Below, piece by piece: positions 2,206 through 55,813 of a stretch of DNA of 64,000 nt. Each line of letters begins with the position of its first letter. The first letter of the stretch is position 1. Both the position numbers and the translations under genes were made by a program. Under the pieces are notes generated by a model, which searched no databases, was not told the origin of the DNA, and was given only the letters and a program-made list of their open reading frames with translations. The DNA is from a virus, in the IMG/VR virus record IMGVR_UViG_3300036770_003454, positions 85,079 through 149,078 of that record. The stretch is one strand, 5' to 3'.

Positions 2206-2241
2206 AATATAAATCCTACATTACATTTCATTGACATAGTC

Positions 2242-2269
2242 ATTATACAGGCAAAAAAAACCTTGTCAA
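2242..2269 (-). promoter_or_regulatory. Sigma70-type promoter for gp61
   Basis: On the minus strand a consensus -35 TTGACA (2269-2264) and consensus -10 TATAAT (2247-2242) are separated by 16 bp, with TG before the -10. The bases just after the -10 contain TGACTATGTCA, a near-palindrome. The same block occurs on the plus strand at 34024-34070. Confidence 0.85.
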
Positions 2270-2286
2270 GTGAAAAATGTAAGATT

Positions 2287-3603: not shown

Positions 3604-3622
3604 GTTATATTATAACCTTTAA

Positions 3623-4483: not shown

Positions 4484-4489
4484 TGTTCT

Positions 4490-4720
4490 TTACTTCCCTT
4501 TTTTATTTTTAATTGCTGTCTTAAAAAGAGTACCCCATTTATCTGGCACTTTGCCATATTTTCCACTAGATTTATTTGATATTATTGATTGATATTTTGA
4601 CTCTTTTGCCATTTTATGTAATTTAGAAGAAATGTCTCCTGATTGCAGAGTTGCAAGCATTCCAAGAAAAGAAGCAAGTTTGTTTTTATCTAAATTTGAA
4701 ATTTCTTCTAAGTTTTCCAT
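4490..4720 (-). CDS. Small protein of unknown function
   Basis: 76 residues, rich in Lys and Ser, with a helical N-terminus (MENLEEISNLDKNKLASFLG) and a basic C-terminus. Its ATG overlaps the upstream stop codon in an ATGG/TAATG-type junction at 4720, showing translational coupling. It stops six bases before the next gene. Likely a virion or assembly accessory protein from context. Confidence 0.6.
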   Translation of the reverse strand: MENLEEISNLDKNKLASFLGMLATLQSGDISSKLHKMAKESKYQSIISNKSSGKYGKVPDKWGTLFKTAIKNKKGK

Positions 4721-4938
4721 TATACTTCCATTAAAAGTTCTATTAATTTTTTTCTTAATATATCATTAAGAACTACTCTTTCACCATTAATAAACAACTT
4801 TAATTTATCGTCAGTTACTCTATCTCCATTTTTTGAAATAGCAGTTACTGATGATTTGTTTCTATCATCAATTATATCTACTTTGTTATCTTGTATATTT
4901 ATAGTAGACTCATTTTTGTTTTTCAAAATTATTGGCAT
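4720..4938 (-). CDS. Small protein of unknown function
   Basis: 72 residues with no recognised domain. Charged, beta-like N-terminal half (LKNKNESTINIQDNKVDIID) and a helical C-terminus (VVLNDILRKKLIELLMEV). Both ends overlap neighbouring genes by one or a few bases, which supports a genuine cistron in the structural operon. Confidence 0.6.
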   Translation of the reverse strand: MPIILKNKNESTINIQDNKVDIIDDRNKSSVTAISKNGDRVTDDKLKLFINGERVVLNDILRKKLIELLMEV

Positions 4939-5747
4939 TATTCTTTTTCTTGTTTTTTTTTCTTACTTGTCTCAATGTGAGGGTGTTTTTCTTTTGATTT
5001 CTTCTTGTGACTTTCTGGTTCTTCCACTTCAACTTTAAACTCAGTTTTACCTATTTTAATGGTTGTTTCTTTTTCTCTTTCATGTTTTTTTTCTTCAAGA
5101 AAACTTTTAACACTTTCAACTAATCCTGAAGGAAGATCTTTGATTGACATCTGTTCGTCTACTCCTAAATTTAAATATCTTTTCTTAGCAACTGCTTTTG
5201 CTCTGGTTATATGAAATTTCTTCTTATTATCCATATCAGAATCAGAATTTGGTTCTTGTGTAATATATTCTTTTTCAGGATTCAAAAATCTTTTTCTTAA
5301 TTCTTCTGGAGTAATAGAATCTACAACTTGTGGCATATCTTTATATTTAGATTTTATTTCATTGACAATCTTATCCACGTGTGAATGGTCAATTTTTACT
5401 TCAAATCTTCCAGTCACATCAAAAATTTTATTTGCTAATTGTTCTGCTGTATCAATATCTTGTTTTGTTGAATAACCAGAAGCAATTACTTTTTTCATTA
5501 TACCAAATAGTTCATCCTGTGTTTTTACAGAACGTTCTACTTTATCTCCTGAAATGTCTTTTGATATATCTGAATATATTCTTTGTGCATCTGGTGATAC
5601 TTCAAAATGTTGACTTCTATATGAACCAGCATATACTTGATCGTTCATATCTTTTTCTTTTTTGCCGTGTCTTGGATCATGAGTTGATGATAACTCATTA
5701 ATAGAACCAAAACGAATTGTGTTTTCTAATGAACGATACTTTGACAT
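4938..5747 (-). CDS. Charged virion-associated protein, unknown function
   Basis: 269 residues, strongly hydrophilic. The last 60 residues are lysine/glutamate-rich (EKKHEREKETTIKIG, KKKSKEKHPHIET). No catalytic motif is visible. It sits directly downstream of the Dps-like gene with a one-base gap and overlaps the next small gene. Given the run of basic and charged proteins here, it may be packaged in the head. It does not carry the N-terminal packaging tag seen on other proteins of this phage. Confidence 0.6.
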   Translation of the reverse strand: MSKYRSLENTIRFGSINELSSTHDPRHGKKEKDMNDQVYAGSYRSQHFEVSPDAQRIYSDISKDISGDKVERSVKTQDELFGIMKKVIASGYSTKQDIDTAEQLANKIFDVTGRFEVKIDHSHVDKIVNEIKSKYKDMPQVVDSITPEELRKRFLNPEKEYITQEPNSDSDMDNKKKFHITRAKAVAKKRYLNLGVDEQMSIKDLPSGLVESVKSFLEEKKHEREKETTIKIGKTEFKVEVEEPESHKKKSKEKHPHIETSKKKKQEKE

Positions 5748-6187: not shown

Positions 6188-8599
6188 TTATCCTCTTGCT
6201 GACATTGTTAATGTTCGTCTTGCATTTTGACGATTTCTCATGGATACTTGAGACATTCTTCTGCTCTTTGTTGCTGCTTTCACAAATTTTGCTGTATTAC
6301 GAATACCACCAGCAACAGTTGATCCTGGTCTTGGTTTTCTTATTGGTCCTGGTCCACGTGTTGCAACATTGTGTTTTGCTGTTGGTCTTTTTATAGTAAC
6401 TTTTCTTCCAGGAGGTGCAGATCTTTTCTTTTCTTGAAATCTAACTGTTCTTCTTGTAGTTTGTCCAGCACCTATTCTTGGAACTGCCTCACACAATACT
6501 TCTTCTTTTATTGTTTGTTTGATAGTATCAGTAATTTTCTTTTTCTTGTCATCAATTGGTAATTGTCCTGGAGTATGTTCAATATAGTTCTTAGTGAGTT
6601 CTGTGGTTCCCATATCTCCTGCTCCCCCTTCTTCTCTCAACCCAATTCCTTTCAATAATCTGTGAACTATAGAATTTTTTAAATCTCTGTGGTGTTGCAT
6701 TTGTTTTAAATATGATTCTTCGGCACTGTGTCTTTTCAACCAACCAAATTGATCGTTTGGTTGAATGTTTGATTTTGCTTCTTTATATTCTGCTTTAATC
6801 AGTTGTTTTCCTTTTTTTGGGTTGTATTGTTCGCCTGATTTTTTAATATCTTTTACATATGCCCAAAAAGGAGAAGTTGGTCCAGTTTCTTTTTTAGTTT
6901 CTTCTGGTTTTGAAGTGTATCCTGGTCTATTAAAAGCAGATGCAATTCTTTCTCTTGGAGTATCTTCTTTTGGTTTCATAGGTGGATCTGGTTGTTTTTC
7001 TGCTTTTTTTTCAGATGCTTTTCTTTTTCTTGCTGCTGCTAAAGTTCTTAAAAGTTCTCTTTCACGTGCTGCCTTTGGTCCTTTTACAGAACTCAATCTT
7101 TTATATTCACCCTTTAATGATCTTCTTGCTTCTGTTATTGCTTGTCCTGGTGTAGAAACATAAGAAGGAGATGTGCTATCATCAGCATAAGGATTTGATC
7201 CAGGTGTCATCATTTGAACTGTTTGTGGAATTGTTTTTTTATCCATTTTCTTTTTTGCTTCTTCTATTAGTTCATATGCTTCTTTAACTGTTTCGTCCCT
7301 TGAATCCATATAGTCAGCAAGAGTATCAATATAGTCTGCTGCTTTAGTCAGTTTAGACTGTACCCATGCTTCTAATTCTCCCTCACCATCAAGATGCTTC
7401 ATCAGTCTTTCAATGCCTCTCATTGCTGTTCGCAATTCGTTTCTGGCCATTTCATGTTCATAATCTTCATTCAAGGATTTCCATCCACCACCTTTAGATT
7501 TATACCATTTTGCTGCCCAACCATTCGCATAGGCAGAATTTCCTGTAATGGTTATAAATCCATTTTGTACCATTACCCAAGTTTGATTTTCTGTTGTTGG
7601 GCACCAAACATCTTCAGACCCCGCATCTTCTATAATTAGGTTTTGTGTGTTATGGTATTTTTTATTTCTAATTATAGATGCTCCAGATATACTTTCTGTT
7701 TTTTCATAAAAACTGATATGATAACCGTTAAGATACGCAGCAAACAACGCAGACCAAAAATGATCATCGTTTTTTTGAGTAAATCCAAAAGTATGTCTAT
7801 CTTTGATTTTTGATGATCCCCCAACATCATGCCCATCATATATAATAGAAGATGCCAAGAAAACTTCTCTCGTTTCTTTAGACCAAGATAAAACTTTAGA
7901 TACCCAATTATCCTTTTTAGACCAATTTTCCTCTAAAAATTTATTTTCTTCGTTCTCTAAAACTGCTCCTGTGACAATTCTCATTCTTTTATGTATATCT
8001 TTAGTTTCTACCAAAGATACTTGATCATAAGCAGTTCCGGTCTTGACAACCCATTTATGATTTTCTGTTGCTTTAATACAAAATCCGGTTGATTTATATA
8101 TTTTTTTCAAAGGAGCATTTTCATAAAAATGTAGATTTGTTATTGGACCCCATTCCAACACATCTTTATTAATATTGTATGTAAGTATTTCTTCTCCTAT
8201 AGAAAGTTCATCAAAAGATTTCAATCCTTCTCTAGTAATTGCTTGACTGTCCATTGGCACACAAGGATATATCTTAAACTTTTTCTTTGCTTGTGCTTTT
8301 GCTTGTGCCCATAGTTTAGGATTTGTGGGTACATTCTTTTCCAAAAGAACTTCTTCGTTATGAGTTTTCACGAATTTTGCCTTTCCTTTTCTTTCAGCAT
8401 TTGGATCTTCTCTTCTTTTTCTTCTTGCTGCTGATGCTCTTCTTTTTTCACCTAAAGCATGTGCTTCTGCCCTAGGCAAACATTTTGGTTTGCCTTCTCC
8501 TGGTTCTTTGGCACAATCACCTTTAATCTTCCCTTTGGTGTCAAAACGAACCCATTTTTCCTTAAACCATTTTCTTAAGTCTTCGTTTATGTCAGTCAT
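6188..8599 (-). CDS. Large basic virion protein with DUF5872-like N-terminus, interrupted by an intein
   Basis: 803 residues from the ATG at 8599 (a TTG nine bases upstream is rejected). Residues 6-75 match the DUF5872 type: WFKEKWVRF, paired Cys in DCAKEP and KCLPRAEA, then RRKRREDPNAERKGKAKF. The host domain resumes after the intein as SAYANGWAAKWYKSKGG, so the spliced junction reads FKIYP-SAYANGW. The middle is helical, and the C-terminal 150 residues are extremely basic (RRTVRFQEKKRSAPPGRK, RRMSQVSMRNRQNARR), suggesting DNA contact in the capsid. It overlaps the upstream gene by eight bases. Function unknown; DUF5872 segments recur in phages and giant viruses. Confidence 0.8.
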   Translation of the reverse strand: MTDINEDLRKWFKEKWVRFDTKGKIKGDCAKEPGEGKPKCLPRAEAHALGEKRRASAARRKRREDPNAERKGKAKFVKTHNEEVLLEKNVPTNPKLWAQAKAQAKKKFKIYPCVPMDSQAITREGLKSFDELSIGEEILTYNINKDVLEWGPITNLHFYENAPLKKIYKSTGFCIKATENHKWVVKTGTAYDQVSLVETKDIHKRMRIVTGAVLENEENKFLEENWSKKDNWVSKVLSWSKETREVFLASSIIYDGHDVGGSSKIKDRHTFGFTQKNDDHFWSALFAAYLNGYHISFYEKTESISGASIIRNKKYHNTQNLIIEDAGSEDVWCPTTENQTWVMVQNGFITITGNSAYANGWAAKWYKSKGGGWKSLNEDYEHEMARNELRTAMRGIERLMKHLDGEGELEAWVQSKLTKAADYIDTLADYMDSRDETVKEAYELIEEAKKKMDKKTIPQTVQMMTPGSNPYADDSTSPSYVSTPGQAITEARRSLKGEYKRLSSVKGPKAARERELLRTLAAARKRKASEKKAEKQPDPPMKPKEDTPRERIASAFNRPGYTSKPEETKKETGPTSPFWAYVKDIKKSGEQYNPKKGKQLIKAEYKEAKSNIQPNDQFGWLKRHSAEESYLKQMQHHRDLKNSIVHRLLKGIGLREEGGAGDMGTTELTKNYIEHTPGQLPIDDKKKKITDTIKQTIKEEVLCEAVPRIGAGQTTRRTVRFQEKKRSAPPGRKVTIKRPTAKHNVATRGPGPIRKPRPGSTVAGGIRNTAKFVKAATKSRRMSQVSMRNRQNARRTLTMSARG
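7538..8263 (-). mobile_element. In-frame intein, 242 residues, with degenerate LAGLIDADG-like core
   Basis: Residues 113-354 of the host protein. It starts at Cys (CVPMDSQAITREGLKSF, block A, then IGEEILTYN). Block B is IKATENHKWVV with the TxxH motif. It ends VWCPTTENQTWVMVQ then NGFITITGN (blocks F and G) before Ser+1 of the extein. The penultimate residue is Gly instead of His, followed by the required Asn. Between the splicing halves, EVFLASSIIYDGHD and ALFAAYLNGY resemble worn LAGLIDADG motifs. The insert is larger than a mini-intein but shorter than most with a full homing endonuclease. Confidence 0.9.
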
Positions 8600-9758
8600 T
8601 TTTCTCAACTGCCATTTTGACTCTTTGATAAATGGAAGAATCTTTTGTTACAACATCCATAAGTTCATCTAATACATCCATAATCATTTCTCTATAGGCA
8701 GCAATTTTAGAATTCTTTCTAATGTCAGACATTGCTTTTTTATATTGTAGATACTTATTTTTATCTACAAGACCAACTGCCATTAGTTTATTGAATTTGG
8801 ACATATCATCTTCAAGGATTACTTCTGCAAATGTAAGGATTTCAACTTCATCTGTCATAAGTTTATTTCTATATCCAACTTGAGTATCAGCTCCAGTTAT
8901 TGATTCTGGTCCGGTTGCTGTTCTTCCTCTTCTAACAGATTTCTTAGCAGATTTTCCGGAAACACCACGAATCATTTGGGCAATTGTCCAATTATCTGCA
9001 TCCGCTGCATCAAATCCTTTAAGATGTTTTTTTGATTTGCGAACATTTCTCCAAGCAGTTCTTGCTTCTGCTTCTGGCGAAGCAAATCTTTGTTGTCTGG
9101 AATATTGTCCTCTTTTTCTTTTATGAATATTTCTTTCAGATTGTGCTTTTCTTCTTAATAGCTCTAATCTGGATATTTCATCCAATTGTTCTGTTTGCTC
9201 ATTAATTAAAAAATCGATCGCAGTTTTCTTGTTTGTCGTGATTAATGTTTCGCCGTCTGCTTTGCGTTCTGCCCGATACTTGGTTACGGTTCTCGTTGGT
9301 ATTTTAGCATGGGTCCCTGATATTTTCATAATATCACCAACGTGGTCACCATTGTTATTGTGTACCTTTTCTTCATTTTGTAAATGTGGAACTGTTGGTT
9401 CTCCATGTTTGCCTTTTAATGCTTGAAATCTTTTATATTCTGCCATACGAACTACAGGAACCAATCGCATAGCAAGTCTTTTAATTGCTTTGCCTTTTTC
9501 ATCGATTAGTTTATCAATTTGAATTTTTTGTGTGGGAGAAAGTGATTGATAGTGAGCACCTTGTTGTCCAGCAAACTTAATGCGAAACATTTTTCTTGCC
9601 AATTTTTGTGCTCTGGCATATATTACATTTTCATCAGCAAGACGTTTTCTTTTGATTGCTCTTTGTCTTACTAATTTAGGTTCAATGCGTCTTAATTGCT
9701 GTGCTCTTTTTCTGCGTTGAGCAATAGACATAACCTTTTCTACAACTAAATCTTTCAT
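8592..9758 (-). CDS. Highly basic conserved virion protein
   Basis: 388 residues, Arg/Lys-rich throughout (RRKRAQQLRRIEPKLVRQRA, HKRKRGQYSRQQRF, KSAKKSVRRGRTATG), with a more acidic C-terminal helix region. It resembles a family of basic proteins next to structural genes in marine T4-like phages; no enzyme motif is seen. A central stretch (KIPTRTVTKYRAERKADGE) looks beta-rich. The ATG at 9758 follows a late promoter box 20 bases upstream. Probably a DNA-binding head protein; this is inference from charge and context. Confidence 0.75.
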   Translation of the reverse strand: MKDLVVEKVMSIAQRRKRAQQLRRIEPKLVRQRAIKRKRLADENVIYARAQKLARKMFRIKFAGQQGAHYQSLSPTQKIQIDKLIDEKGKAIKRLAMRLVPVVRMAEYKRFQALKGKHGEPTVPHLQNEEKVHNNNGDHVGDIMKISGTHAKIPTRTVTKYRAERKADGETLITTNKKTAIDFLINEQTEQLDEISRLELLRRKAQSERNIHKRKRGQYSRQQRFASPEAEARTAWRNVRKSKKHLKGFDAADADNWTIAQMIRGVSGKSAKKSVRRGRTATGPESITGADTQVGYRNKLMTDEVEILTFAEVILEDDMSKFNKLMAVGLVDKNKYLQYKKAMSDIRKNSKIAAYREMIMDVLDELMDVVTKDSSIYQRVKMAVEKND

Positions 9759-9785: not shown

Positions 9786-11087
9786 TTAAGTTATTTCTTC
9801 CCAATCTATAGCACCTGATGCATCATCTCCAGCAGTTCCTGCCATGCCAGCAAGAGTCAATATCTCAGGGGTATTTGTCAAACCATTTCTTCGTAATTGA
9901 AATTTAAATAAATCATCTTTACCAAGTTGAATAATAGATGATGATTGATTTGTTACTCCCACAAATCCTTGTTGAATAACATCACCACCAGTTATTGTAT
10001 TTGCTACCATATTATATTCTACAGGAGAATCATTAGCAGCAGATGTAAAATCAGTATTACCACCTAAAGTGCCACCTGAAATTAATCCAAATTTTATTCT
10101 TCCGGTATTTCCTTCTCCTAAGAAAGATATATTTGTTGGAATAACAATTGAATCAATTTGGGATGATTTTAATCTAATAGATACGATAGGATACCATATT
10201 CCTGCTGTTGCCATATTAAAATTGCTATTTGCTGGGGTGCCTATTGATCTAGGTCTGCCCTTCAATTCATAACCACCTTCAGAAATAACTGAAGAACAAA
10301 CTTGTTTCAATGTTGATGAAGTTGTTGTATTTGCAATATTTTTTATTTCAAATCTAACGGGCAAACATGCTGTTGTCATATATGGTCCATCAGAAATATT
10401 AGCATGATGAAATGAATGACAATGAATTAATTGACCATTTATGATAAAACCACATCTAACTGATCCAAGACCCAACCATTCAATATCTATAAACATGATT
10501 TGACCTTTGGTAATATCTAAAGTCAACCCAGATGGTCCTGTGCCGTCTAATTTATCATAATTCCATTCTGACTGTGATGCTTTATTATCAGTAGGAGTAT
10601 TAGTTGAATTGCTTCTTTTAACAAAAGATAATGTTGAATTTTCTAATTCAAGAAAAATACCATTTCTATCATCAAAATAACCTGTTCTCTGTCTCAATCC
10701 GTCTTGTGCAGGATTCATAACGAATGTTTGAAGAACTTGTAAACTTTTTCCAGGTTGATATGCAAAAACTCTTTTTGACTCACGAACAACTTGTGCATTA
10801 TTAGCAGTATCTACAGTCATAGAAAATGCAGCAGTATTTGCATTAAATGTATATGTACCACCAGCAGTATTTGCAGTATCAAATTTACCATTTGGATCAT
10901 ATCTATGATATGAATCAAATAGTGTTAATGGTGTAGATACTCTTGCTCTACCAAAAGCATCTACTGTTGTTCCTGTTGGATTAGCAGCACCAACAAGATT
11001 ACCATATTGGTCTGCAAGCATTACTACTTCAAATACTGTTTTTCCATCATTTAAGTATTGGTGGGTATCTTTTCTAAATTGTGCCAT
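9786..11087 (-). CDS. Virion structural protein conserved in marine T4-like phages
   Basis: 433 residues. The N-terminus (AQFRKDTHQYLNDGKTVFEV, then MLADQYGN) and the block GRARVSTPLTLFDSYHRYD are characteristic of a structural protein seen in many cyanophage-like myoviruses. The rest is beta-rich with ELENSTLSFVKRS, GYFDDRNGIFLE and FIDIEWLGLGSVR, like a receptor-binding or decoration fold. It overlaps the stop of the HAD gene by TAATG. Probably a surface or fibre-associated protein. Confidence 0.8.
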   Translation of the reverse strand: MAQFRKDTHQYLNDGKTVFEVVMLADQYGNLVGAANPTGTTVDAFGRARVSTPLTLFDSYHRYDPNGKFDTANTAGGTYTFNANTAAFSMTVDTANNAQVVRESKRVFAYQPGKSLQVLQTFVMNPAQDGLRQRTGYFDDRNGIFLELENSTLSFVKRSNSTNTPTDNKASQSEWNYDKLDGTGPSGLTLDITKGQIMFIDIEWLGLGSVRCGFIINGQLIHCHSFHHANISDGPYMTTACLPVRFEIKNIANTTTSSTLKQVCSSVISEGGYELKGRPRSIGTPANSNFNMATAGIWYPIVSIRLKSSQIDSIVIPTNISFLGEGNTGRIKFGLISGGTLGGNTDFTSAANDSPVEYNMVANTITGGDVIQQGFVGVTNQSSSIIQLGKDDLFKFQLRRNGLTNTPEILTLAGMAGTAGDDASGAIDWEEIT

Positions 11088-11794
11088 TATGATACTCTCT
11101 TAACTTTTCCTTTGGTGAAGTGTATACCAACAAATTCTTTATCTGTGTGATGATCTCTAAGAGATTTTCCGCCCAACTCTTCAAGGGGGGTTGTGTGAAT
11201 ATCATCAACATTTGCTTTATGGTCATCGTATCCAACGATTTTTTTAACTCCAGATAAACCAAACTTTGGTTCTGTCAATATGCGATGCAACATTCTTGCT
11301 TTATTAATGTGTGTTGGGTTTTTGCCGTAATTTCCTGCTCTGTGTAAATGGAAATTAGGATGTGAAGTATCCAATCCCATTTGTTTCAAAGATCCCAATA
11401 GAATTTCTGGATTTTCTAAATCACTTCTTGCGGTGATGATATGAACATGATGTCCGTTATCTAATAATCTTTGTGCGTGGTTAATCATTTTTCTGATTGG
11501 GTGTGCAGAGTTAGCAAACACCTTTGGATCTTTAAATTCTTTGAAGTCATAACTATGTCCTGGTTTTAGATTGTCTCCCTTGACATGAGTATTAAATTCA
11601 GAGGTGGATAGAGTTTCCACTCTGTTTCCTTTTTCATCATTTACATGAACCTTTGCTCCTTTTTCTGGGTCATGTTTGACCAGTGTGTCGTCCAGATCAA
11701 ACCAACTTACAAATTTTTTTCCTCCATACAGTTTTTTCATTATGGATTTTAGTAGTTGTTCGTCTAATTGAATGAATGATTTAAATGGTAACAT
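11087..11794 (-). CDS. HAD-family phosphatase-like protein with N-terminal capsid-targeting-like tag
   Basis: 235 residues. The HAD motifs are clear: motif I WFDLDDTLV (nucleophile Asp near residue 33), motif II IITARSD, and a late acidic motif IVGYDDHKANVDD. A likely phosphatase of nucleotides, nucleic-acid ends or proteins; substrate unknown. The N-terminus MLPFKSFIQLDE resembles the tag shared by about ten proteins here and the T4 internal-protein capsid-targeting sequence, so it may be packaged in the head, trimmed by gp21 and injected. Translationally coupled to both neighbours. Confidence 0.82.
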   Translation of the reverse strand: MLPFKSFIQLDEQLLKSIMKKLYGGKKFVSWFDLDDTLVKHDPEKGAKVHVNDEKGNRVETLSTSEFNTHVKGDNLKPGHSYDFKEFKDPKVFANSAHPIRKMINHAQRLLDNGHHVHIITARSDLENPEILLGSLKQMGLDTSHPNFHLHRAGNYGKNPTHINKARMLHRILTEPKFGLSGVKKIVGYDDHKANVDDIHTTPLEELGGKSLRDHHTDKEFVGIHFTKGKVKRVS

Positions 11795-12828
11795 TATTCT
11801 TCTTTCTTAAATTGTCCCAGTTTTACATTAAATTGTAATGAACCCCATGGACCTTTTGTAGACCGGTGTTCTACATAAAATAGAGGTATTTTTCGTCCAT
11901 CTTCATGATGCGTATGATATTGTATAACTCCGTTTCCATGTTGGGTAGCAGACAATCTTGTAGCAGAATTGATCCTTTTTCTCATTGTTCCTCTGCCATG
12001 AAGAATTGCTTCACCCTGTCCTTGATTTCTATGTGGCAAAACAGTATAATATGGTATATCCGATTCTGGTTTTAATAAAGAATGAAGATATTTTCTTTGT
12101 TGATCTATTGAATTTGCACCATTGAAATTCTTTGTTATTTTATCAACAATGCCTTTTCTTGTTTCTAAATAAGAAGATCTTTTGCTTTCTTTATTTTCTT
12201 TTGTCTTGTTTGAACCAAGTTCTCTGGTTCTTGCAGAATTATAATCAGCATACGCATGAGATGCTATTCCAGTCGTGTCCTCTGATGAATGCCTGCGAGC
12301 CCCAAGATTGTTGTATGTTCCAAAATCTTTTTCTGATCCTTTCAACGATGCTCCATGAAAAGAACCGGTTCTTAGTTTAAACATTAAATCGTGTGGATAT
12401 CTTCTAGCACTAAAAGAACTGTCAGGGGTTCTTCCTATTAAACTAAATAAATGTCTAGCATTTTTTACATGCCTTACTTCAGATACATCTTGTAAAGTAA
12501 AATCTTTTTCCTTAGACCTTTTTTCAGACAATTTATCTATTAATAATTTTGAAGATTTTTTTGCTAAAGAATCTTGAGAATCCAACCTGTCTTTTAAATG
12601 AGGATTGTTTGCTCTGATCGTGTCCAATTTTGTTTTTAAATCTTCAATGTGATCTAAATATTCTGGATGTTGATTTGGATGACTTAATGAATTGTGAGTG
12701 TGCACAACCGTGGCCATTTCAAAATAATCGGAAACAGTTTTGTTTACTCTGCTTCCTTTTTTTCTTGCTTTTTCTCTGCGAAAGTATCTTCCATAAGACT
12801 CATTTATAAAGGTTTTAAATCTCATCAT
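11794..12828 (-). CDS. Unknown protein with capsid-targeting-like N-terminus
   Basis: 344 residues, basic. It starts MMRFKTFINESYGR: two adjacent Met codons at 12828 and 12825, the second giving the tag MRFKTFINE followed by Ser, an expected gp21 cut. The body is unrecognised; it has a helical charged middle and segments DLMFKLRTGSFHGASLKGS and IQYHTHHEDGR. The Asp...SLK arrangement faintly recalls PD-(D/E)xK-type nucleases but is not enough to call. A late promoter box lies 58 bases upstream, inside the preceding gene. Probably an injected head protein. Confidence 0.7.
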   Translation of the reverse strand: MMRFKTFINESYGRYFRREKARKKGSRVNKTVSDYFEMATVVHTHNSLSHPNQHPEYLDHIEDLKTKLDTIRANNPHLKDRLDSQDSLAKKSSKLLIDKLSEKRSKEKDFTLQDVSEVRHVKNARHLFSLIGRTPDSSFSARRYPHDLMFKLRTGSFHGASLKGSEKDFGTYNNLGARRHSSEDTTGIASHAYADYNSARTRELGSNKTKENKESKRSSYLETRKGIVDKITKNFNGANSIDQQRKYLHSLLKPESDIPYYTVLPHRNQGQGEAILHGRGTMRKRINSATRLSATQHGNGVIQYHTHHEDGRKIPLFYVEHRSTKGPWGSLQFNVKLGQFKKEE

Positions 12829-18702: not shown

Positions 18703-19644
18703 TTACTCTCTCGAATAATTAGTTAATGGAATCCCCATTCTTATTTTTTTACGATCAGCTTGATATTTTTTATCACTACGTTTAGCATATTCTTTAACAG
18801 TATTATGTAATCCTTCTACATGCCCAGGTGGTGTAAGAAATCCAGAATCTGCCATCAATACTCTTTCTCCGTGTGGATGATTTATGCTCATCCCAGTATT
18901 ATCTTCGTTGAAGTCTCCACCATGAAGTCCTGCTTCTGTTACAGCGGACCTCCATGATTTTACCAATGGATGATCTTCTGTTATATTATGTTTACCATAT
19001 TCTTGGTGTTGTTGTATATCCATACCAGTAGTTGTACTGCCAAGACCCCTTATCGCATGATTACGCAAAGCATTTAAATAATCTCCCATATCATCCATAT
19101 GTATTCCATGAATCTTATGGAAATCTGCTGTTTTAATAGGACGAATTCTTTCTGATATTAAATATAATCCTTCTGGATGTGCATGAAATACCGTTGGTAT
19201 AATACCATGTGGATTTGCAGAATATGTACCATCTTCATGTTTGTGATATGTTCTCAGAGGATCAAAAACAGGATGTACTTCATTCAAATTTTGCAATTGA
19301 CCCAACATTTTTTGATGTGGTTCACGCACAGAATCATAACTGCTATAATGTTTTATAGCAAACTTATAAACAACAGGAACATGATGGTCCACCACAGTAT
19401 ATGAACCACCATCCTTACTATATTGTCTCAATTTAATTGGAATAGTTACTCCAGCATGTGCTGCTCTTGAAGAACCTTTACCCAATAATGGACCCATCTT
19501 TGGACCCATTTGTTTTTTTGTTTGTTCATAATAATCTTCAGGATTTTCTGATTCTTGTAAAATTTGAAGAAAGATTTGAAACTCTTCCTCTGTAAGTAGA
19601 GGAAGATTTTGATATTGTTCTCTAAACTCTTTAAAAGATTTCAT
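18703..19644 (-). CDS. Protein-kinase-like protein with capsid-targeting-like N-terminus
   Basis: 313 residues. Kinase-fold features in order: glycine-rich GKGSSRAAHAG (55-65), VYKFAIK with Lys94 as candidate ATP lysine, YLISERI (161-167) as hinge, HGGDFNEDN (241-249) as catalytic loop with Asp244 and Asn249 five residues apart as in HRDxxxxN, and LMADSGF (264-270) with Asp266 as the DFG-type metal ligand. It begins MKSFKEFREQ, similar to the packaging tag on other proteins here, although the gp21 site is less clear. If packaged, it would be injected and could phosphorylate host targets early. It lies between gp43 and small early genes. The kinase call rests on motif order. Confidence 0.65.
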   Translation of the reverse strand: MKSFKEFREQYQNLPLLTEEEFQIFLQILQESENPEDYYEQTKKQMGPKMGPLLGKGSSRAAHAGVTIPIKLRQYSKDGGSYTVVDHHVPVVYKFAIKHYSSYDSVREPHQKMLGQLQNLNEVHPVFDPLRTYHKHEDGTYSANPHGIIPTVFHAHPEGLYLISERIRPIKTADFHKIHGIHMDDMGDYLNALRNHAIRGLGSTTTGMDIQQHQEYGKHNITEDHPLVKSWRSAVTEAGLHGGDFNEDNTGMSINHPHGERVLMADSGFLTPPGHVEGLHNTVKEYAKRSDKKYQADRKKIRMGIPLTNYSRE

Positions 19645-36397: not shown

Positions 36398-36856
36398 TTA
36401 TTTTGGATCATACCCCCATTCTAAATGAGAATTGCCATCAGTGAATATATGTTTTGCTGGTACTCTCATTGCGGCAACATGATATTCGCCATTTAAATGA
36501 TTTCTACCATGCTCGTGTGCATATTCTTTTGATGTTGTTACCCAATCTCCTGGTCTAATCATATGTCTTATTGGTATTTCTTTTTTCATTGCTTCTTTAC
36601 GAACAGATAACGGAACTGCTCTAAATATATAAATTTTTTCGTCTGGTTTATCTTTCATCCTTTGTATTTTATTAAAATTAGATTGATCATAATCATTTCC
36701 TTGATTTCCATAATATTCAAATCCTTTATGTGAATAAACATCTTTTGGATAAATTCCATTAGAAGTAACATCATGTAAGGGTGCTCCAGTTTCCTTATCT
36801 GGCGCTTCATGCTGTCCTTTATAATTTTCAGTGATAAACTGTTTAAATGTATACAT
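36398..36856 (-). CDS. ADP-ribosyltransferase-like protein with capsid-targeting-like tag
   Basis: 152 residues. The N-terminus MYTFKQFITE then Asn is the packaging tag with an expected gp21 cut after Glu10. The body carries an R-S-E-type ART pattern: YIFRAVP (Arg79), DWVTTSKEYAHEHG (Ser109) and HLEWGYDP (Glu146). T4 packages and injects ARTs (Alt) to modify host RNA polymerase. This may be a counterpart, though far smaller. It belongs to a late operon starting at 38007. Confidence 0.75.
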   Translation of the reverse strand: MYTFKQFITENYKGQHEAPDKETGAPLHDVTSNGIYPKDVYSHKGFEYYGNQGNDYDQSNFNKIQRMKDKPDEKIYIFRAVPLSVRKEAMKKEIPIRHMIRPGDWVTTSKEYAHEHGRNHLNGEYHVAAMRVPAKHIFTDGNSHLEWGYDPK

Positions 36857-36865
36857 TTTTATCCT

Positions 36866-37387
36866 TTACATTTTTTGGATACTATATGATCTATATCTAA
36901 ATGTTGCTGATGCTTCAAGATATTGAACATCTTGTGGGGTAGAATCGAAAATCAATGATGATATTGAAATAGGAAAAGCATCTTTAAATACTACTTCATA
37001 ATTTGGATTTCTTGAAGATGTTAGAATAATCAATGACATATCAGAAGTTATTCCAAGTCCAGTATAAACTGGATTTCCTGATATTGATTTGTATTCATCA
37101 AAACTATTTGGAAATCCAAGTTCTCTTATCCAATTATACAACTCAAGATAGTTCTGAAGATCTTCATCAACTTTATAGTTAATCATAAGATCATCAAAAT
37201 CGATATGATCTCCTGCTTTTGGTATTCTGACGAATGGGTTAGGTTGTTCTGGACCATTTAATACCATTCCTGGAAGATTTACATTTTGAAGAAAGAAATT
37301 AACATTGGGGCACTTTTTGATTTGAAATCTGAAATTCAAAGGACTCAGAAAGTTTTTATTTTCTGGAATATTATCAAGTGCTGACAT
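36866..37387 (-). CDS. Tail-tube-like virion structural protein
   Basis: 173 residues. SPLNFRFQIKKCPNVNFFLQ, LPGMVLNGPEQPNPFVRIP, GDHIDFDDLMINYKVDEDLQ and NYLELYNWIRELGFP are typical of the gp19-like tail tube and tube-initiator proteins of T4-like marine phages. It is distinct from the gp19 found at 46246-46869. Probably a baseplate or tail-tube component. Confidence 0.78.
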   Translation of the reverse strand: MSALDNIPENKNFLSPLNFRFQIKKCPNVNFFLQNVNLPGMVLNGPEQPNPFVRIPKAGDHIDFDDLMINYKVDEDLQNYLELYNWIRELGFPNSFDEYKSISGNPVYTGLGITSDMSLIILTSSRNPNYEVVFKDAFPISISSLIFDSTPQDVQYLEASATFRYRSYSIQKM

Positions 37388-37388
37388 T

Positions 37389-37733
37389 TTAAATTCTCCT
37401 TAATGCTTTGTGATCGAATACATAAATTGAATGTGGTTCATTTCCACCTTCATTAAATCTTACTGCGGCAAATCCTTCACTTTTTGCTTGATTCAGATGT
37501 GGTTCTATATCATCTCCTGCATAAATGTGACTCATATCTTTTACACGATTTGTTGGTATTTGTTTTGTCAATACTTCTTTTTCTTGTCCTGATTGTGTAA
37601 ATTGTCTAGCAAACTCTTTATCTACAGAATAAAATTTTCCTTTTAGTGGTCCACCTTTACGATTGTGTACAGATTCTCCACGATATATTGTTATGTGATT
37701 TTCTTCTGTGATATATTGTTTAAACTTCTTCAT
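37389..37733 (-). CDS. Small ADP-ribosyltransferase-like protein with capsid-targeting-like tag
   Basis: 114 residues. It starts MKKFKQYITE then Glu, matching the packaging tag. The rest follows a compact ART-like pattern: ITIYRGES (Arg18), GKFYSVDKEFARQFT, and a C-terminal GFAAVRFNEGGNEPHSIYVF. Such short ART-like domains are common in phages. It overlaps the upstream GIY-YIG-type gene by 14 bases. Confidence 0.7.
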   Translation of the reverse strand: MKKFKQYITEENHITIYRGESVHNRKGGPLKGKFYSVDKEFARQFTQSGQEKEVLTKQIPTNRVKDMSHIYAGDDIEPHLNQAKSEGFAAVRFNEGGNEPHSIYVFDHKALRRI

Positions 37734-38007
37734 CTTTAAGATACCTAATTCTTGCGTGTTTTACTTCTGATATTGCTTGTTCTAAATCAATATCAAACCA
37801 TTCCCCATGTGTTTTTCTGTGTTTAATCGTATTGTGAATAGTTTGTTCAAGTAATCTAACTTGATCATCAGAAATCAATTCAATGTGATGCAATTTAAGT
37901 TTTTTTGGATGTCCTGTTTGAAGATTTTTCAATCTTCTTGCAGGATTATTTGTTATTCCAATTTTATATGGTTTTTCTGTTCCACCGATTACATATAGAT
38001 ATGCCAT
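37720..38007 (-). CDS. T5orf172/GIY-YIG-type domain protein
   Basis: 95 residues: YLYVIGGTEKPYKIGITNN, PARRLKNLQTGHPKKLKL and a C-terminal LLEQTIHNTIKHRKTHGEWF, which is the T5orf172 (MUG113) variant of the GIY-YIG nuclease fold, with Tyr, Tyr/Gly, Arg, and Glu in place. First gene of a late operon behind a TATAAATA box. Role in DNA cleavage or homing is possible. Confidence 0.85.
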   Translation of the reverse strand: MAYLYVIGGTEKPYKIGITNNPARRLKNLQTGHPKKLKLHHIELISDDQVRLLEQTIHNTIKHRKTHGEWFDIDLEQAISEVKHARIRYLKDEEV

Positions 38008-38032: not shown

Positions 38033-38040
38033 TATTTATA
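38033..38040 (-). promoter_or_regulatory. T4-type late promoter TATAAATA
   Basis: Exact TATAAATA on the minus strand, 26 bases before the ATG at 38007 and directly after the terminator at 38043-38068. Confidence 0.85.
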
Positions 38041-42385: not shown

Positions 42386-43033
42386 TTAAAGTGATTTTAG
42401 GAATTGCTCAAACAACTTTACTTTCTGTTCTTCAAGTTGTCTTGATGACATTTTCTTAACACTTTCTTTAATCTTTTCTACAAATTCACCAGTTTGTTCA
42501 TTGTAGAAATATTCTACATTCTCCATGATTCCTTGAACAAATGCTCCTGGTGCTGATGGATCTGCAACAATATCTGCTGCTGTTACAATACGAAAATCGT
42601 CTTGTACTTCCATCAATCCATTTTGTCCTGCCTTCAATGAACCTAGTCCACGTGAAGAAACACCAAGATTTGCTCCACCTTCAATCAATCCTCTGGCAAT
42701 ATTTCCCATAGGAGTATCAAGAACTTTTGCTCTACCCCAAACAACACCATTTGATCTAACTTCAAGATTTTCAATGAGGTGTGATACTCTATCAAGATTG
42801 ATTTGTGGTCCTGATGGATGATTTAATTCACCATAAGCACGTTTTTCTGAAACTACTTCTTTTAGATAACGATTGACTTCGTTTCTCATCACTCCTTCAG
42901 AATAAACTCTTCCGTTCTTGTTACCTTTTCCATAGACCATGTAACAACCTTCAATGAAAAGATTTTTCTTTCCATTTTCTGATGCTTCTGTGATGAACGA
43001 TACTTCATCTGCTTGTTCTAAAATAAGTTTCAT
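42386..43033 (-). CDS. 21: Prohead serine protease gp21
   Basis: Cleaves gp23, the core proteins and tagged internal proteins after (L/I)-x-Glu. 215 residues. Catalytic His72 in AYGELNHPSG and Ser126/127 in LGVSSRG are clear. Its substrates in this phage probably include the roughly ten tagged proteins described here. Confidence 0.95.
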   Translation of the reverse strand: MKLILEQADEVSFITEASENGKKNLFIEGCYMVYGKGNKNGRVYSEGVMRNEVNRYLKEVVSEKRAYGELNHPSGPQINLDRVSHLIENLEVRSNGVVWGRAKVLDTPMGNIARGLIEGGANLGVSSRGLGSLKAGQNGLMEVQDDFRIVTAADIVADPSAPGAFVQGIMENVEYFYNEQTGEFVEKIKESVKKMSSRQLEEQKVKLFEQFLKSL

Positions 43034-46245: not shown

Positions 46246-46869
46246 TTATCTTACTCCAGGAGGAGTAGAAATATCTGCCGTATCATTTCCTCTTTCCGCA
46301 GTCAATTCTCCAGAAATCCAATAATCATATGCAAATTCTACATCAAATTGTTCGACTTGATTGATTGCATCCCAATCCAATTGAATTGCATCAACTGTTA
46401 CTGGAAATGCACCAACTAAAGTACATTTAAAAATTACTCCGGGTTCTTCTTGAATTCCATATTCAAAACCTCCTTTGGAATATTGTTTCACCACGATATT
46501 TGCTTTATAAGTTAATGGTGAAGGACCAACTTGTCCTGACATAATGTTTGTTATTTTTCCATTCAATTGTTCGTGCCAATTCATAAATGAGTTTCTGACT
46601 AGAAAATCTTCATCGTTCATTACTGTAATTGACCAATTTGGAAATACTCTATCACCTATAATTTTTACTTTTCTTCCAAAGTATGGAATGTCGATAGATT
46701 CCACCACTGATGGTGGAATCGAAGATGCTTTTGCCAAAAATCTAATTCTTTCTGGGGAGGTGGTTCCATTGCTTCCAGGAAAAGTAGACATTTCTATTTC
46801 AAATAGAGAAGGTCTGGCTCCTCCTAGATTAAGACCTTCCGATTTGAATCGTTCTATATTGAATGTCAT
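46246..46869 (-). CDS. 19: Tail tube protein gp19
   Basis: 207 residues. LFEIEMSTFPGSNG, LAKASSIPPSVVESIDIPYF, GRKVKIIGDRVFPNWSITVM and a C-terminal AIQLDWDAINQVEQFDVEFA block are typical of gp19. It lies downstream of gp18 as in T4, with a late promoter between them. Confidence 0.95.
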   Translation of the reverse strand: MTFNIERFKSEGLNLGGARPSLFEIEMSTFPGSNGTTSPERIRFLAKASSIPPSVVESIDIPYFGRKVKIIGDRVFPNWSITVMNDEDFLVRNSFMNWHEQLNGKITNIMSGQVGPSPLTYKANIVVKQYSKGGFEYGIQEEPGVIFKCTLVGAFPVTVDAIQLDWDAINQVEQFDVEFAYDYWISGELTAERGNDTADISTPPGVR

Positions 46870-49496: not shown

Positions 49497-51119
49497 TCAA
49501 TTTTGATCCACAACAATCCAATAATCATCTCTATAAGACATTTCATCAGAGACAGGTTCTACTCCATCATCAATAAATCCAAACGGTAACATATCATCGT
49601 TTAATTCTTCTAAACTCTTTTCTTTCAATTTCATTAATGTGTTTATATCAGTTAAGTCTTTGAAGAATTTCTGTTCTGTTAACCATCCAAACAAAACTAA
49701 ACACATAACCAAATCATCATGGCATCCTGATTCTGCTTCATATGAAGCACCTTTTTTAGAAAATGTAGATAACTCGTGAATTGTTTCATAATCATTAATA
49801 AGTAATTGATTTTGTTCTACTAATAATTTTAACATAGAACATCCAATTGCTTTTACAGATTTTGTAGTTCTTATTCCTCTATCAGTTCCTGAAGATTTGT
49901 AGTTCAGAGTAATTCGTTTTCCTTGCTTTCCAGCAGACTCAGTAAACATCATTGATTCATATTCATAATCAAAATATAACGATTCTGCTACTTGTTGTCC
50001 TATATCATTTACTTCAATTAACATAGAACAATTGTTATATTGTCTTCCGATTCTGTTTAATATTTCTGCAAAATCTCCAGGAGTTGTCATATTATCTCTG
50101 AACGATAAAACTTGTTGATATGGCATTTCTGTCACATCAAATACTTGCAATGCAGAATAATCTAATCCTTTTCCACGAGAAACATCAGCAACACCAACAT
50201 ATGTCCTGTTTTTCTTTGGTTTTTCATATTGACTAATACCAGCATGTTCTGCTATTGGTGTTTGAGGAACTAATTCTTGTAATTTCCAACCAGCAATAAG
50301 AGTTCCTGATGAACCAAGATATTGATTTTCATATTCTTGTGCAAATCTATCATAGTCAAAATTCATTCCTGCAAGAATTTCTTCTTTCCATTTTTCATCT
50401 CTGTTAGGAACATTTTGCCACGGAACAGAAATCAATTTGTAATTGTTTTTATTTTGTCTTGCCAAAGATGTTATCTTATAAAAATGATTTAATCCGTTTA
50501 CTGTTGATACAAGAACAAGTTTTGTAGATGCACCTGATGATATAGTTGGAAATACTGAAGTAAAAAACTCGTCCCAATTATCAATAAATGCTGCCTCATC
50601 AATGATTAATAAATTAATTGAATAACCACGAATGTTATTTGAAGAGGTTGCTGCTGCAATAACTCTTGATCCGTTTTCTAATTCAAACGAACCTTTATTC
50701 CATTCTATAACACCTTGTTGTAACCATTTTGGCAAATGTTCGTATGCTAACTGTATCCTTGATAGAATTTCTCTTGCAGTTTCTGCTTTATTAGCAAGAA
50801 TTGCTACAGTTTTATTTGGATTAAAAATAATATACCAAAGAACGAATACAGTAATAGAAGTTGTTTTCCCTGACTGTCTACTGCATTCTGCTACTGTAAA
50901 CCTTTCATTAAGAACTGTTGTGATGATATCTTTTTGATAATCATATAAAGGAATAGTGATTAGTCCTTGGTCAACATTCACAATTTTCATATGATTTTCA
51001 GCAAAGTAGATTGGGTCTTGTGAACACTTAACCATTTCTTGGACTTTTTCAGGAGTCCAATCTATTTGTACATTTGATTTTTTTAGTGTGGATGATCCAC
51101 GATAACCTTTAAGTTCCAT
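49497..51119 (-). CDS. 17: Terminase large subunit gp17
   Basis: DNA-packaging motor and nuclease. 540 residues. Walker A ECSRQSGKTT (78-87), Walker B INLLIIDEAAFI, motif III LVSTVNGLNHFY, and the RNase H-like nuclease beginning VGVADVSRGKGLDYSALQVF with later acidic residues at LIEVNDIGQ and CHDDLVM. N-terminal DPIYFAENHMKIV matches the family. It overlaps the lysozyme gene upstream by one base. Confidence 0.97.
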   Translation of the reverse strand: MELKGYRGSSTLKKSNVQIDWTPEKVQEMVKCSQDPIYFAENHMKIVNVDQGLITIPLYDYQKDIITTVLNERFTVAECSRQSGKTTSITVFVLWYIIFNPNKTVAILANKAETAREILSRIQLAYEHLPKWLQQGVIEWNKGSFELENGSRVIAAATSSNNIRGYSINLLIIDEAAFIDNWDEFFTSVFPTISSGASTKLVLVSTVNGLNHFYKITSLARQNKNNYKLISVPWQNVPNRDEKWKEEILAGMNFDYDRFAQEYENQYLGSSGTLIAGWKLQELVPQTPIAEHAGISQYEKPKKNRTYVGVADVSRGKGLDYSALQVFDVTEMPYQQVLSFRDNMTTPGDFAEILNRIGRQYNNCSMLIEVNDIGQQVAESLYFDYEYESMMFTESAGKQGKRITLNYKSSGTDRGIRTTKSVKAIGCSMLKLLVEQNQLLINDYETIHELSTFSKKGASYEAESGCHDDLVMCLVLFGWLTEQKFFKDLTDINTLMKLKEKSLEELNDDMLPFGFIDDGVEPVSDEMSYRDDYWIVVDQN

Positions 51120-51751
51120 TAATTATGTAATCCAAACTCATCTTTTATTTTATTTAATCTTGCTTTCCACCCTTCACGATATTTTTCATATTTTGGGTTT
51201 GCGGTTAATCTATTATAATCCTTTTGTCTTGCGTTTAAAAGTTCGTGTGGATTATCTCCTACGGTATCAATTAATTTTTTTGCAAATCTTGGACCATGAT
51301 GTACAGATGCATCCAATACAATTGCTCTTGATGGTTTGCTCAGTGTATGATATTTTGGATGTTTTATCATTTCATTATAATATTGTGTTTTATATATTTC
51401 TCCTGCTTTTTCGTGTGAGAGATTTTTTATTTCATTTTTTGAAAGTCCTGTTCCTTTTTCACTCACTCCAAACTTTGTTGTTCCTCCAGGATCAGATTTA
51501 TCTTTTGATAATCCCCCTTCCAACTTGAAAGTTCTTTCAATAAAATCTTCTGATTCTTTTTTATGATCTATAGGATTGTCTAGTCTTCTAATTAAATCTC
51601 CTATTTCATCTTTTGGTGGCGCAACATATTTTTTAATCAAATTACCAATATGATCAATTCCACGTCTTGGAGTTACTATTGCAGGAGGTTGCATAGATGT
51701 TGGGGGTAGATACCCCGAGTCTTCTTTAAGAAATTGTTTAAAAGTTTTCAT
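51119..51751 (-). CDS. GH108-type lysozyme with capsid-targeting-like tag
   Basis: 210 residues. N-terminus MKTFKQFLKE then Asp: the packaging tag. Residues 70-205 form a glycoside hydrolase 108 domain: FIERTFKLEGGLSKDKSDPG, GTTKFGVSEKG with catalytic-type Glu78, and LDASVHHGPRFAKKLIDTVG. It cuts peptidoglycan. It sits between gp16 and gp17. If packaged, it could help DNA entry; it may alternatively act as endolysin, but no signal peptide is seen. Confidence 0.85.
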   Translation of the reverse strand: MKTFKQFLKEDSGYLPPTSMQPPAIVTPRRGIDHIGNLIKKYVAPPKDEIGDLIRRLDNPIDHKKESEDFIERTFKLEGGLSKDKSDPGGTTKFGVSEKGTGLSKNEIKNLSHEKAGEIYKTQYYNEMIKHPKYHTLSKPSRAIVLDASVHHGPRFAKKLIDTVGDNPHELLNARQKDYNRLTANPKYEKYREGWKARLNKIKDEFGLHN

Positions 51752-54425: not shown

Positions 54426-54974
54426 TTATGACATAGGTGATGATTGTTTAGTATTTATCATCTTTTTATTATGTTGTTTAAGATGTTCAAATGCCGCATT
54501 AATATCACCATTGTTGTGAGAATCAATAGCATTGGAGAGATGTTCCCCTGGCATAGATTCGTCGTATTCATCTTGTGCTTTTTCCAATGCTGCTTTTGAT
54601 TTAGCAATCAACTCTGGATTTAAGTTTGGTTTATTAATCTCTCCATGAGAATAAACTGGCAATTCATGTGCCATTCCACCTGCTTGTGCTGGAGATGCGG
54701 CAAGCATTGTTGCTGCTATCATTGCTCTCAATGATTTTGATTCTAGCAACGAACCTCTTATTTCTTGCGCAGACATTTTATTATTCAATGGTGTATGCCC
54801 AAGATTATGTCTTAGAGCATTAATCTTTGTTAGATGAAATTTTTTTTCACTTGCTGAGGTTTTTGGATTCAGATAAGCATGAATAGAATCATTATGTGCT
54901 TTTTTGATGTGTATGTCTTCTGGATTATCGTTGCTTGCTTGCATTTCAGCAAGGAATTGTTTGAATGTTAGCAT
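54426..54974 (-). CDS. Tagged head protein with hidden signal-peptide-like segment
   Basis: 182 residues. N-terminus MLTFKQFLAE then Met: packaging tag. At residues 76-78 a second possible gp21 site, LLE before Ser, is followed directly by a segment with the layout of a signal peptide: SKSLRAMIAATMLAASPAQA then GG (79-98). After two gp21 cuts the mature N-terminus could be exported. The rest is helical and His/Asn-rich (SNAIDSHNNGDINAAFEHL). Function unknown; between gp13-region genes and gp14. Confidence 0.72.
   Translation of the reverse strand: MLTFKQFLAEMQASNDNPEDIHIKKAHNDSIHAYLNPKTSASEKKFHLTKINALRHNLGHTPLNNKMSAQEIRGSLLESKSLRAMIAATMLAASPAQAGGMAHELPVYSHGEINKPNLNPELIAKSKAALEKAQDEYDESMPGEHLSNAIDSHNNGDINAAFEHLKQHNKKMINTKQSSPMS
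54452..54459 (-). promoter_or_regulatory. Late-promoter-like GATAAATA for gp14
   Basis: GATAAATA on the minus strand, 38 bases before the gp14 ATG and inside the end of the upstream gene; one mismatch to TATAAATA. Confidence 0.5.
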
Positions 54975-55001: not shown

Positions 55002-55508
55002 TTATTCAGAATATTGTCTATTGAATGGAATCCATTTTTTATTTTTGTGATCCCATTTGTCACGAATGTATCTTGCTGGTATTTTGTCTTTTACTTTATA
55101 ACCACCGTAGTTACCGCCTTTTTCAATAGGATTTGGCATATTTCTACCAGGAATAATTCTATATAATGCTAATTTTTTTTGTATACCAGCTTTCTTATTT
55201 GCAGAACTAATTTTCCAAGAACCACTTTTTTCATTTGTTGGATCAGTATCATCCCAATGATCACTTATATGAACATGTTTTGTTTGTTCATCCGCAGCTT
55301 TGTTTAAGTCTTCATCATTTGAAAAAGTGTCTCCCCATTTTTTCTTAAATATTTTTTTTGCTTCTTCATGTCCAACAAGAGATGAAAGTGATTTCAAATC
55401 CTCTCCAGGTTGTAAATCATCAGGGCCTATATGAAAAAATCTTTTTGGTCTTTTTAATTCTGTCAAATATTCTTCATTTATATTAAAGAATTGTTTGAAT
55501 GTTAGCAT
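55002..55508 (-). CDS. Tagged head protein, possibly ADP-ribosyltransferase-like
   Basis: 168 residues from the ATG at 55508 (overlapping the upstream stop as TAATG), which gives the tag MLTFKQFFNINE. An ATG two codons earlier is also possible. The body begins PKRFFHIGPDDLQPGEDLKS and has AKKIFKKKWGD and LALYRIIPGRNMPN. The His-Gly-Pro start with a later YRIIP strand loosely resembles short ART-like domains, but catalytic residues are not certain. Confidence 0.62.
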   Translation of the reverse strand: MLTFKQFFNINEEYLTELKRPKRFFHIGPDDLQPGEDLKSLSSLVGHEEAKKIFKKKWGDTFSNDEDLNKAADEQTKHVHISDHWDDTDPTNEKSGSWKISSANKKAGIQKKLALYRIIPGRNMPNPIEKGGNYGGYKVKDKIPARYIRDKWDHKNKKWIPFNRQYSE

Positions 55509-55813
55509 TACCATTTAACCTTATTTGCCCAATAGGCAGCAGACATTTTACCTTTTGCTATATTTTTGGCATGTCTTGCTTTGAATCTCTTTCTTCTATT
55601 CGCATATGCTTCTGATTCTCCTTTTTTCTTAGGAGAACCTTTCACTCCTCGTTGTCCAAAACGAATAATCTTTTCTTTACCACCAGAACATGCTTTTACC
55701 ACATGAGACTTACCAGTTTGAGAATCACCGACTGCTTGTGCTCTTGGTTTATTACATGCCATTTTGCTTTTATCTATTTTTGCTTCAGATAAGAATTGAC
55801 TAAATGTTAACAT
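55508..55813 (-). CDS. Tagged small basic protein (conserved KACSGGKEKIIRFG family)
   Basis: 101 residues. N-terminus MLTFSQFLSE then Ala: the cleanest tag and gp21 site in the set. After cleavage the body is a small basic protein with SHVVKACSGGKEKIIRFGQR, RRKRFKARHAKNIAKGKMSA and AYWANKVKW, a conserved motif set I recall from other phages without a tag. High charge suggests DNA binding inside the head or in the host. Confidence 0.78.
   Translation of the reverse strand: MLTFSQFLSEAKIDKSKMACNKPRAQAVGDSQTGKSHVVKACSGGKEKIIRFGQRGVKGSPKKKGESEAYANRRKRFKARHAKNIAKGKMSAAYWANKVKW

Follow-up and report, generated by a model that had tools for sequence, protein, structure and literature searches.

Two small genes in a T4-like phage genome, here called ORF A and ORF B (ORF, open reading frame), probably encode ADP-ribosyltransferase (ART) effectors that are packaged in the phage head and injected, as a stand-alone version of domains known from polyvalent proteins. 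Judging from sequence comparisons, fold models and analogy with characterised phages, we put the probability of this reading at about 0.68. The two proteins would probably be injected into the bacterium along with the phage DNA and there disable the host or reprogram it. The genes lie in a stretch of 64,000 nucleotides (the window), which corresponds to bases 85079–149078 of the 149,078-base virus record IMGVR_UViG_3300036770_003454; the remaining 85 kb of the record were read as five stretches. The features on which the argument depends are as follows.

36398–36856, minus strand: ORF A, 152 amino acids (aa); capsid-targeting-like tag (residues 1–10) and predicted R-[ST]-E type ART-fold domain (about residues 11–152)
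36827–36856, minus strand: tag of A, MYTFKQFITE, with a predicted prohead-protease cut after E10
36866–37387, minus strand: tail-tube-like gene between A and B, a second phrog_45 paralogue
37389–37733, minus strand: ORF B, 114 aa; tag MKKFKQYITE and putative small ART-like domain (R18, S36, E95)
37720–38007, minus strand: T5orf172/MUG113 GIY-YIG-like gene, first gene of the operon
38033–38040, minus strand: exact T4-type late promoter motif TATAAATA, about 26 bases upstream of the operon's first gene
42386–43033, minus strand: prohead protease of the gp21 type (phrog_207, E 1.4e-69), the enzyme expected to cut the tags

Capsid-targeting-like tags in a late operon

A first-pass annotation of this DNA had described both proteins as starting with a tag, and we observed that the tag keeps the register of the T4 capsid-targeting sequence. 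In the T4 internal protein IPIII, the first ten residues are enough for capsid entry; targeting depends on residues 4 and 7 and processing on residues 8 and 10, and the gp21 cleavage site lies after [LI]xE (PMC9026906). The tags in the T4 record are MKTYQEFIAE (IPII and IPIII), MKTFKEFTST (IPI) and MELITELFDE (Alt). A (F4, F7, I8 and E10) and B (F4, Y7, I8 and E10) retain all four IPIII positions, with aromatic residues at 4 and 7, a hydrophobic residue at 8 and Glu at 10. As the tag matches this experimentally defined T4 sequence, packaging of A and B into the virion can soundly be inferred by analogy.

The tags are also more frequent than expected by chance. The motif M(x1-3)[FY][KS]x[FYL] stands at the N-terminus of 10 of the 256 window ORFs of at least 80 aa, eight of these being tagged genes; 200 shuffles gave 2.3 such ORFs on average and never more than 6. 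In total, nine ORFs in the window are tagged, six of them in exact register; [LI]xE comes two residues later in those at 11087 and 55002, and the one at 18703 has LTE further on. The gene for a gp21-type protease is present in the same window. Among the tag-like ORFs of the record's other 85 kb, none was convincing.

T4-like myovirus structural genes occupy the window's minus strand. The major capsid protein, prohead protease and tail tube were matched to PHROGs, while portal, sheath, terminase and neck genes were assigned by eye and from gene order in relatives. The coordinates and residues that the first-pass annotation gave for A and B were correct, as was its placing of both in one late operon. 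Behind the exact TATAAATA motif follow the gene at 37720–38007, B, the tail-tube-like gene and A, almost without gaps: the B start overlaps the T5orf172 gene by 14 bases, 1 base separates the tube-like gene from B, and 9 bases separate A from the tube-like gene. The motif occurs 15 times in the window (8.6 expected), 13 of the 15 on the minus strand, and several copies stand directly upstream of capsid, scaffold and tube genes. The presence of two tail-tube (phrog_45) paralogues, at 36866–37387 and 46246–46869, in one T4-like genome is a separate observation.

When compared with their orthologues in other contigs, A and B gave a ratio of non-synonymous to synonymous substitution rates (dN/dS) of ~0.2, and the tube gene between them 0.04–0.05. 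On this measure A and B are selected proteins, and they evolve faster than the tube gene that they flank.

The ART-like domains of A and B

The relatives of A come from Schizotequatrovirus phages of Vibrio, from Mycobacterium, Gordonia and Rhodococcus phages, and from 62 IMG/VR loci. Its motifs are R79 in IYIFRAVP, T107/S109 in GDWVTTSKEYA and E146 in LEWGY. The family alignment of 50 sequences has H16, R79, W105, Y112, A113, G141, S143, E146 and G148 in every member, and Thr or Ser at position 107 in 47. B is rarer, and its few relatives are found in L008 (77%), in a 103-aa untagged protein (L014) and as domains within 700–2850-aa proteins, among them Cobetia phage Carin1 gp32 (with PBECR5) and L092 (with MuF_C and LPD22). 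A search of genome contigs for further relatives of B found none, and the use of a polyvalent relative as query added little. The motifs of B are R18 in IYRGE and S36 in KFYS; R18, G19, F41, A42, R43, E95 and S102 are invariant in all seven homologues, each of which has Ser or Thr at position 36. The residues picked out in the first-pass annotation, an Arg in YRG/FRA, a Ser-containing strand and Glu146 of A, belong to conserved patterns, with R79 and E146 kept in 50/50 and R18 and E95 in 7/7 sequences. R18, S36 and E95 would be the catalytic residues of B.

The AlphaFold (AF2) model of A is confident, with a predicted local distance difference test (pLDDT) score of 90.1 and a predicted template modelling (pTM) score of 0.84. 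VIA-align returned 44 rows with Z values of 2–4.9, nearly all of them ART-fold proteins from many families. Tpt1/KptA stood at the top (Z 4.9, 2.9 Å over 76 residues), and CNFy, Vis, LT-IIB, TreX/TreTu, cholera toxin A1, poly(ADP-ribose) polymerases (PARPs) and the mono-ART (mART) domain of SdeA were further matches. The Foldseek ranking also contained KptA/Tpt1, Vis, cholera toxin and further ARTs, interspersed with unrelated folds. Residues 3–117 of cholera toxin were aligned to 75–151 of the A model, and 760–868 of SdeA to 73–152. Taking the catalytic residues to be R7/E112 in cholera toxin A1 and R766/E862 in SdeA, and assuming that the ends align without gaps, the model supports R79 and E146 of A being level with the catalytic Arg and Glu. 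The assignment of A as an ART-fold protein of the R-[ST]-E type, with predicted enzymatic activity, is supported because the structural matches are consistent over many ART families, in spite of weak single scores, and because the invariant Arg and Glu fall in the catalytic register. Against viral models, A gave 15 matches with E <0.001, mostly to uncharacterised phage proteins; one match was named as the carrier of a large-polyvalent-protein-associated domain.

The first-pass annotation had taken both proteins as ART-like. Fold prediction bore this out for A and gave a divided answer for B, where the VIA list was filled nearly entirely with ARTs (AcrIF11 first at Z 4.5, ParT at 3.5, then diphtheria toxin and its relatives, and PARPs), but the model was weak and Foldseek listed no ART. 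A comparison of the A profile with the B profile aligned the Arg and S/T motifs, with an hhalign E of 0.008 at a probability of 5%, which is suggestive at most. From these models, it is reasonably likely that B is an ART.

Several points weigh against the reading of A and B as packaged ARTs. Position 107 of A is Ala in 3 of the 50 homologues. The best Foldseek E for A is 0.25, which is not significant alone; the B model reaches a pLDDT of 68, with a best Foldseek E of 1.1 to a non-ART; and the VIA scores for both proteins all lie below Z 5, so that each is individually weak. There was no sequence match of A or B to any solved or curated ART. Scans of Pfam, NCBIfam and PHROG gave no ART family for A, B or a third tagged ORF (55002–55508, described below); neither these three nor the 50 A members matched ART-PolyVal (PF18760) above the cut-off; a search of the own record with this family, run without a positive control, gave no match; and the A and B profiles found chance matches only among PDB sequences. 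With respect to packaging, the tagged homologue of the KVP40-like phages lies among replication genes (regA–pol) and not among structural genes.

A itself carries a different label in the databases. It matches the last 125 positions of phrog_2579, named 'ParB C-terminal domain', at E 2e-32, and its RefSeq homologues bear the same name, according to which A would be a DNA-binding domain. We rejected this identity because the model is ART-like and because Pfam ParB models matched neither A nor the 50 A members, nor the full-length Myrna gp78 and Pupper gp109. A ParB domain is hence very improbable, and on sequence and model the label, which many phage proteins bear, appears to be an annotation error for an ART-like domain.

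In the mechanism that we propose, A and B would be late-expressed internal head proteins that enter the prohead core by means of their first ten residues, which would act as a capsid-targeting sequence of the T4 type. Cleavage by the gp21-type protease after Ile-Thr-Glu would leave an almost bare single-domain ART-fold enzyme in the head, which would be ejected with the DNA into the cell. Once there, Arg79, Thr107 and Glu146 of A, and Arg18, Ser36 and Glu95 of B, would make use of NAD+ in modifying a host molecule, for which a protein from the transcription machinery or from a defence system is the likeliest candidate. By analogy one may guess at RNA polymerase, as in the case of T4 Alt, or at a defence protein, as in that of AcrIF11.

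Instead of modifying proteins as transferases, the packaged proteins might chiefly be NAD+ glycohydrolases, or might inhibit host defences based on NAD+. Against this, the invariant Arg and Glu form part of an R-[ST]-E pattern, which is typical of transferases. The short forms leave little room for substrate recognition, and some phage ART-fold enzymes may degrade NAD+ (PMC9503650); the literature nevertheless has head-packaged ARTs that modify host proteins (PMC9503650, PMC5512222), and we consider a glycohydrolase role unlikely.

It could also be that the tag marks proteins of the prohead core, and that A and B are core or scaffold fillers with a degenerate, non-catalytic leftover of the ART fold. 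T4 internal proteins have mixed or unknown functions (PMC9026906), and A and B are dispensable cassettes, both of which would fit such a role. A degenerate domain is difficult to reconcile with a dN/dS of ~0.2 and with R79, W105, Y112, A113, G141, S143 and E146 being invariant in 50/50 sequences across highly diverged phages, and we regard it as improbable.

Genomic contexts of the relatives and versions of the tag

The homologues of A occur in three contexts: stand-alone with a tag, within longer proteins, and stand-alone without a tag. Tagged stand-alone forms are present in L004, L005, L032, L054, L063, L071, L072, L076, L077, L082 and L088, and in Vibrio phage VH7D (MKTYTEFLSE); the homologue in the VH7D/KVP40 group begins MKTYTEFLSEYHMQ. 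Within longer phage proteins, the A domain is found in chains of up to ~3500 aa, L027 among them carrying LPD23. Both the A and the B domain are found in phage proteins of 700–3500 aa, several of them probably injected proteins of the 'polyvalent' kind, and the partner domains in such large proteins are of the polyvalent type (PBECR5, MuF_C, LPD22 and LPD23). With the filter that was applied, a count of repeated domains in each giant protein gave no entries. The untagged stand-alone forms start near the place where the tag would be cut, for example MSDYRGTHTAP in Mycobacterium phage Phaux and MQDYKGSHESP in L036. In Gordonia phages Pupper and Skog, the A homologue precedes the tail sheath gene by four genes; in Rhodococcus phage E3, it lies among structural proteins.

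The tags follow the genomes and not the A family, in that tagged A homologues carry their own genome's version, as judged from the sequences. In eight contigs that have a tagged A homologue and other tagged ORFs, tag identity was 67% within a contig and 38% between contigs, for sets picked with a tag-like pattern and with some start sites chosen by eye; on reassignment of the tags, 2 of 40,320 permutations were as high as the observed within-contig identity. In the 354-kb contig L076, for instance, the A homologue starts with MIKLTDLIKE, its neighbour with MIKLKILLNE and a CCA/poly(A)-polymerase-like protein with MIKLKMLLNE; in L054, MITYKQLIEE on the A homologue stands beside MITYKQLLVL.

These patterns bear on another explanation, in which A and B are made late and act inside the infected cell without being packaged, their N-terminal likeness being incidental. 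It is favoured by the KVP40-like homologue that adjoins regA, and the packaging of A and B is a prediction from sequence. An incidental likeness would, on the other hand, have to account for positions 4, 7, 8 and 10 being kept, for tags that track the genome, and for nine tagged ORFs that all lie in the 64-kb structural-gene window with none convincing in the other 85 kb. We find it improbable that the proteins are not packaged.

The presence of A and that of B vary independently among close relatives. L002 and L003, which share 96% identity with the window in the major capsid protein, combine the tube-like gene with A and lack B; in L008 the tube-like gene is accompanied by B, and A is missing.

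The tagged neighbour of the A homologue in the jumbo phage L076 (3349–4797) matches ART-PolyVal above the cut-off (E 4e-9); it also weakly matches Tpt1/KptA. In L005, a run of at least five tagged ORFs (29–5501) lies in one contig, and one of them has WMYHGTNRKID, reminiscent of ARTs of the H-Y-E type; this region gave no Pfam match. L011 and L012 have an ORF (L012:1789–2499) with the tag MKTFRQYNQLDE after a 14-aa leader and a match to HD_4, the RelA/SpoT-like HD hydrolase type. It lies between gp16 and gp17 and ends in a fused copy of the last ~42 residues of B; by sequence it is a possible packaged alarmone hydrolase.

A broader interpretation is tentative, and we hold it at slightly below even odds: capsid targeting may be a general, swappable export signal, of which each T4-like or jumbo myovirus genome has a tag version of its own, and small effector domains of a common pool may move between tagged genes that stand alone and giant polyvalent proteins. 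The pool might comprise, with the same reserve, the R-[ST]-E ART family, B, ART-PolyVal, HD hydrolases, CCA/poly(A)-polymerase-like enzymes and muramidases. If so, the phage head would be a multi-effector injection system in which the tag predicts the cargo.

Known systems and further tagged genes

For a long time, the chief examples of head-packed proteins with a short, cleaved N-terminal peptide have been T4 Alt and the T4 internal proteins. Alt is head-packaged and injected; ARTs are present in 30% of myoviruses, and ~44% of phage ARTs lie in contexts that suggest head packaging (PMC9503650). Like A and B as proposed here, Alt is an internal head protein with an R-S-E type ART domain and a propeptide cut by a gp21-type protease. 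Unlike them it has 682 aa and a different short propeptide (MELITELFDE); A and B would be left with ~142 and ~104 aa after the predicted cut, and they match no curated ART family. The suggestion in the first-pass annotation that small ARTs may replace Alt is unproven. The full T4 Alt query gave nothing at E <= 1 in the 149-kb record, in a search run without a positive control, but the suggestion is weakened by the lack of a curated ART family match and by nearest relatives that are modules of large phage proteins, and nothing points to RNA polymerase as the target. T4 IPI, IPII and IPIII share with A and B the 10-residue tag register and the logic of a late internal protein, and differ in cargo, an IP body in place of an ART-like domain.

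In polyvalent proteins, ARTs are the commonest protein-modifying domains and are of the H-Y-D type (PMC5512222). The polyvalent ARTs (ART-PolyVal, PF18760; Tox-ART-HYD2 clade) resemble A and B in having an ART domain thought to be delivered by the virion, and the A and B homologues inside large phage proteins with polyvalent-type partner domains form a further link. In contrast to the published H-Y-D forms, A has the R-[ST]-E pattern and no PF18760 match, and is tagged and stand-alone. AcrIF11 is an ADP-ribosyltransferase that modifies Cas8f (PMC13131331). This small single-domain phage ART (PDB 6kyf) was the best structural match of B (Z 4.5, rmsd 4.1, 85 aligned residues), but the PDB sequence search detected no sequence relation between the two. 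AcrIF11 is not known to bear a virion tag.

There is precedent for head-packaged ARTs, for capsid-targeting sequences and for polyvalent proteins. What appears to be new is an unnamed ART-like family, filed under a ParB label, that occurs both as a module of large proteins and as tagged stand-alone cargo; searches of the open-access literature found no paper describing such use of a family. Should the proposal for A and B be right, the same tag would deliver a different ART family that is widespread from mycobacteriophages to jumbo phages. With the tag, injected effectors of uncultured phages could then be listed by a simple rule on sequence, and the stand-alone versions would allow domains of giant polyvalent proteins to be expressed and tested with ease.

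The other tagged ORFs of the window, taken as cargo candidates, are the following.

11087–11794, minus strand: tag MLPFKSFIQLDE with a HAD-phosphatase-like domain
11794–12828, minus strand: tag MMRFKTFINE, 344 aa, no family
18703–19644, minus strand: tag MKSFKEFREQ..LLTE, 313 aa, no family match
51119–51751, minus strand: tag MKTFKQFLKE with a glycosyl hydrolase 108/endolysin domain
54426–54974, minus strand: tag MLTFKQFLAE, 182 aa
55002–55508, minus strand: third candidate, tag MLTFKQFFNINEE; ATG at 55508, within a longer ORF that reaches 55514
55508–55813, minus strand: tag MLTFSQFLSE, 101 aa, phrog_7595

The ORF at 55002–55508 had been named as a third ART candidate. Searches for its relatives returned only a near-identical contig, scans of Pfam, NCBIfam and PHROG gave no family match, and profile comparison with A and B aligned only the tag (to A).

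The HAD-phosphatase-like protein at 11087–11794 has a weak match to a polynucleotide-kinase PHROG, and the protein at 18703–19644 looks kinase-like by eye, without a family match. The ORF at 51119–51751 sits between terminase and gp16 and is possibly a head-carried muramidase. Elsewhere in the window, an 806-aa ORF at 6188–8608 has an intein-like insert by eye (CVPMDSQAITREGLKSFDELSIGEEILTYN ... WVMVQNGFITITGN).
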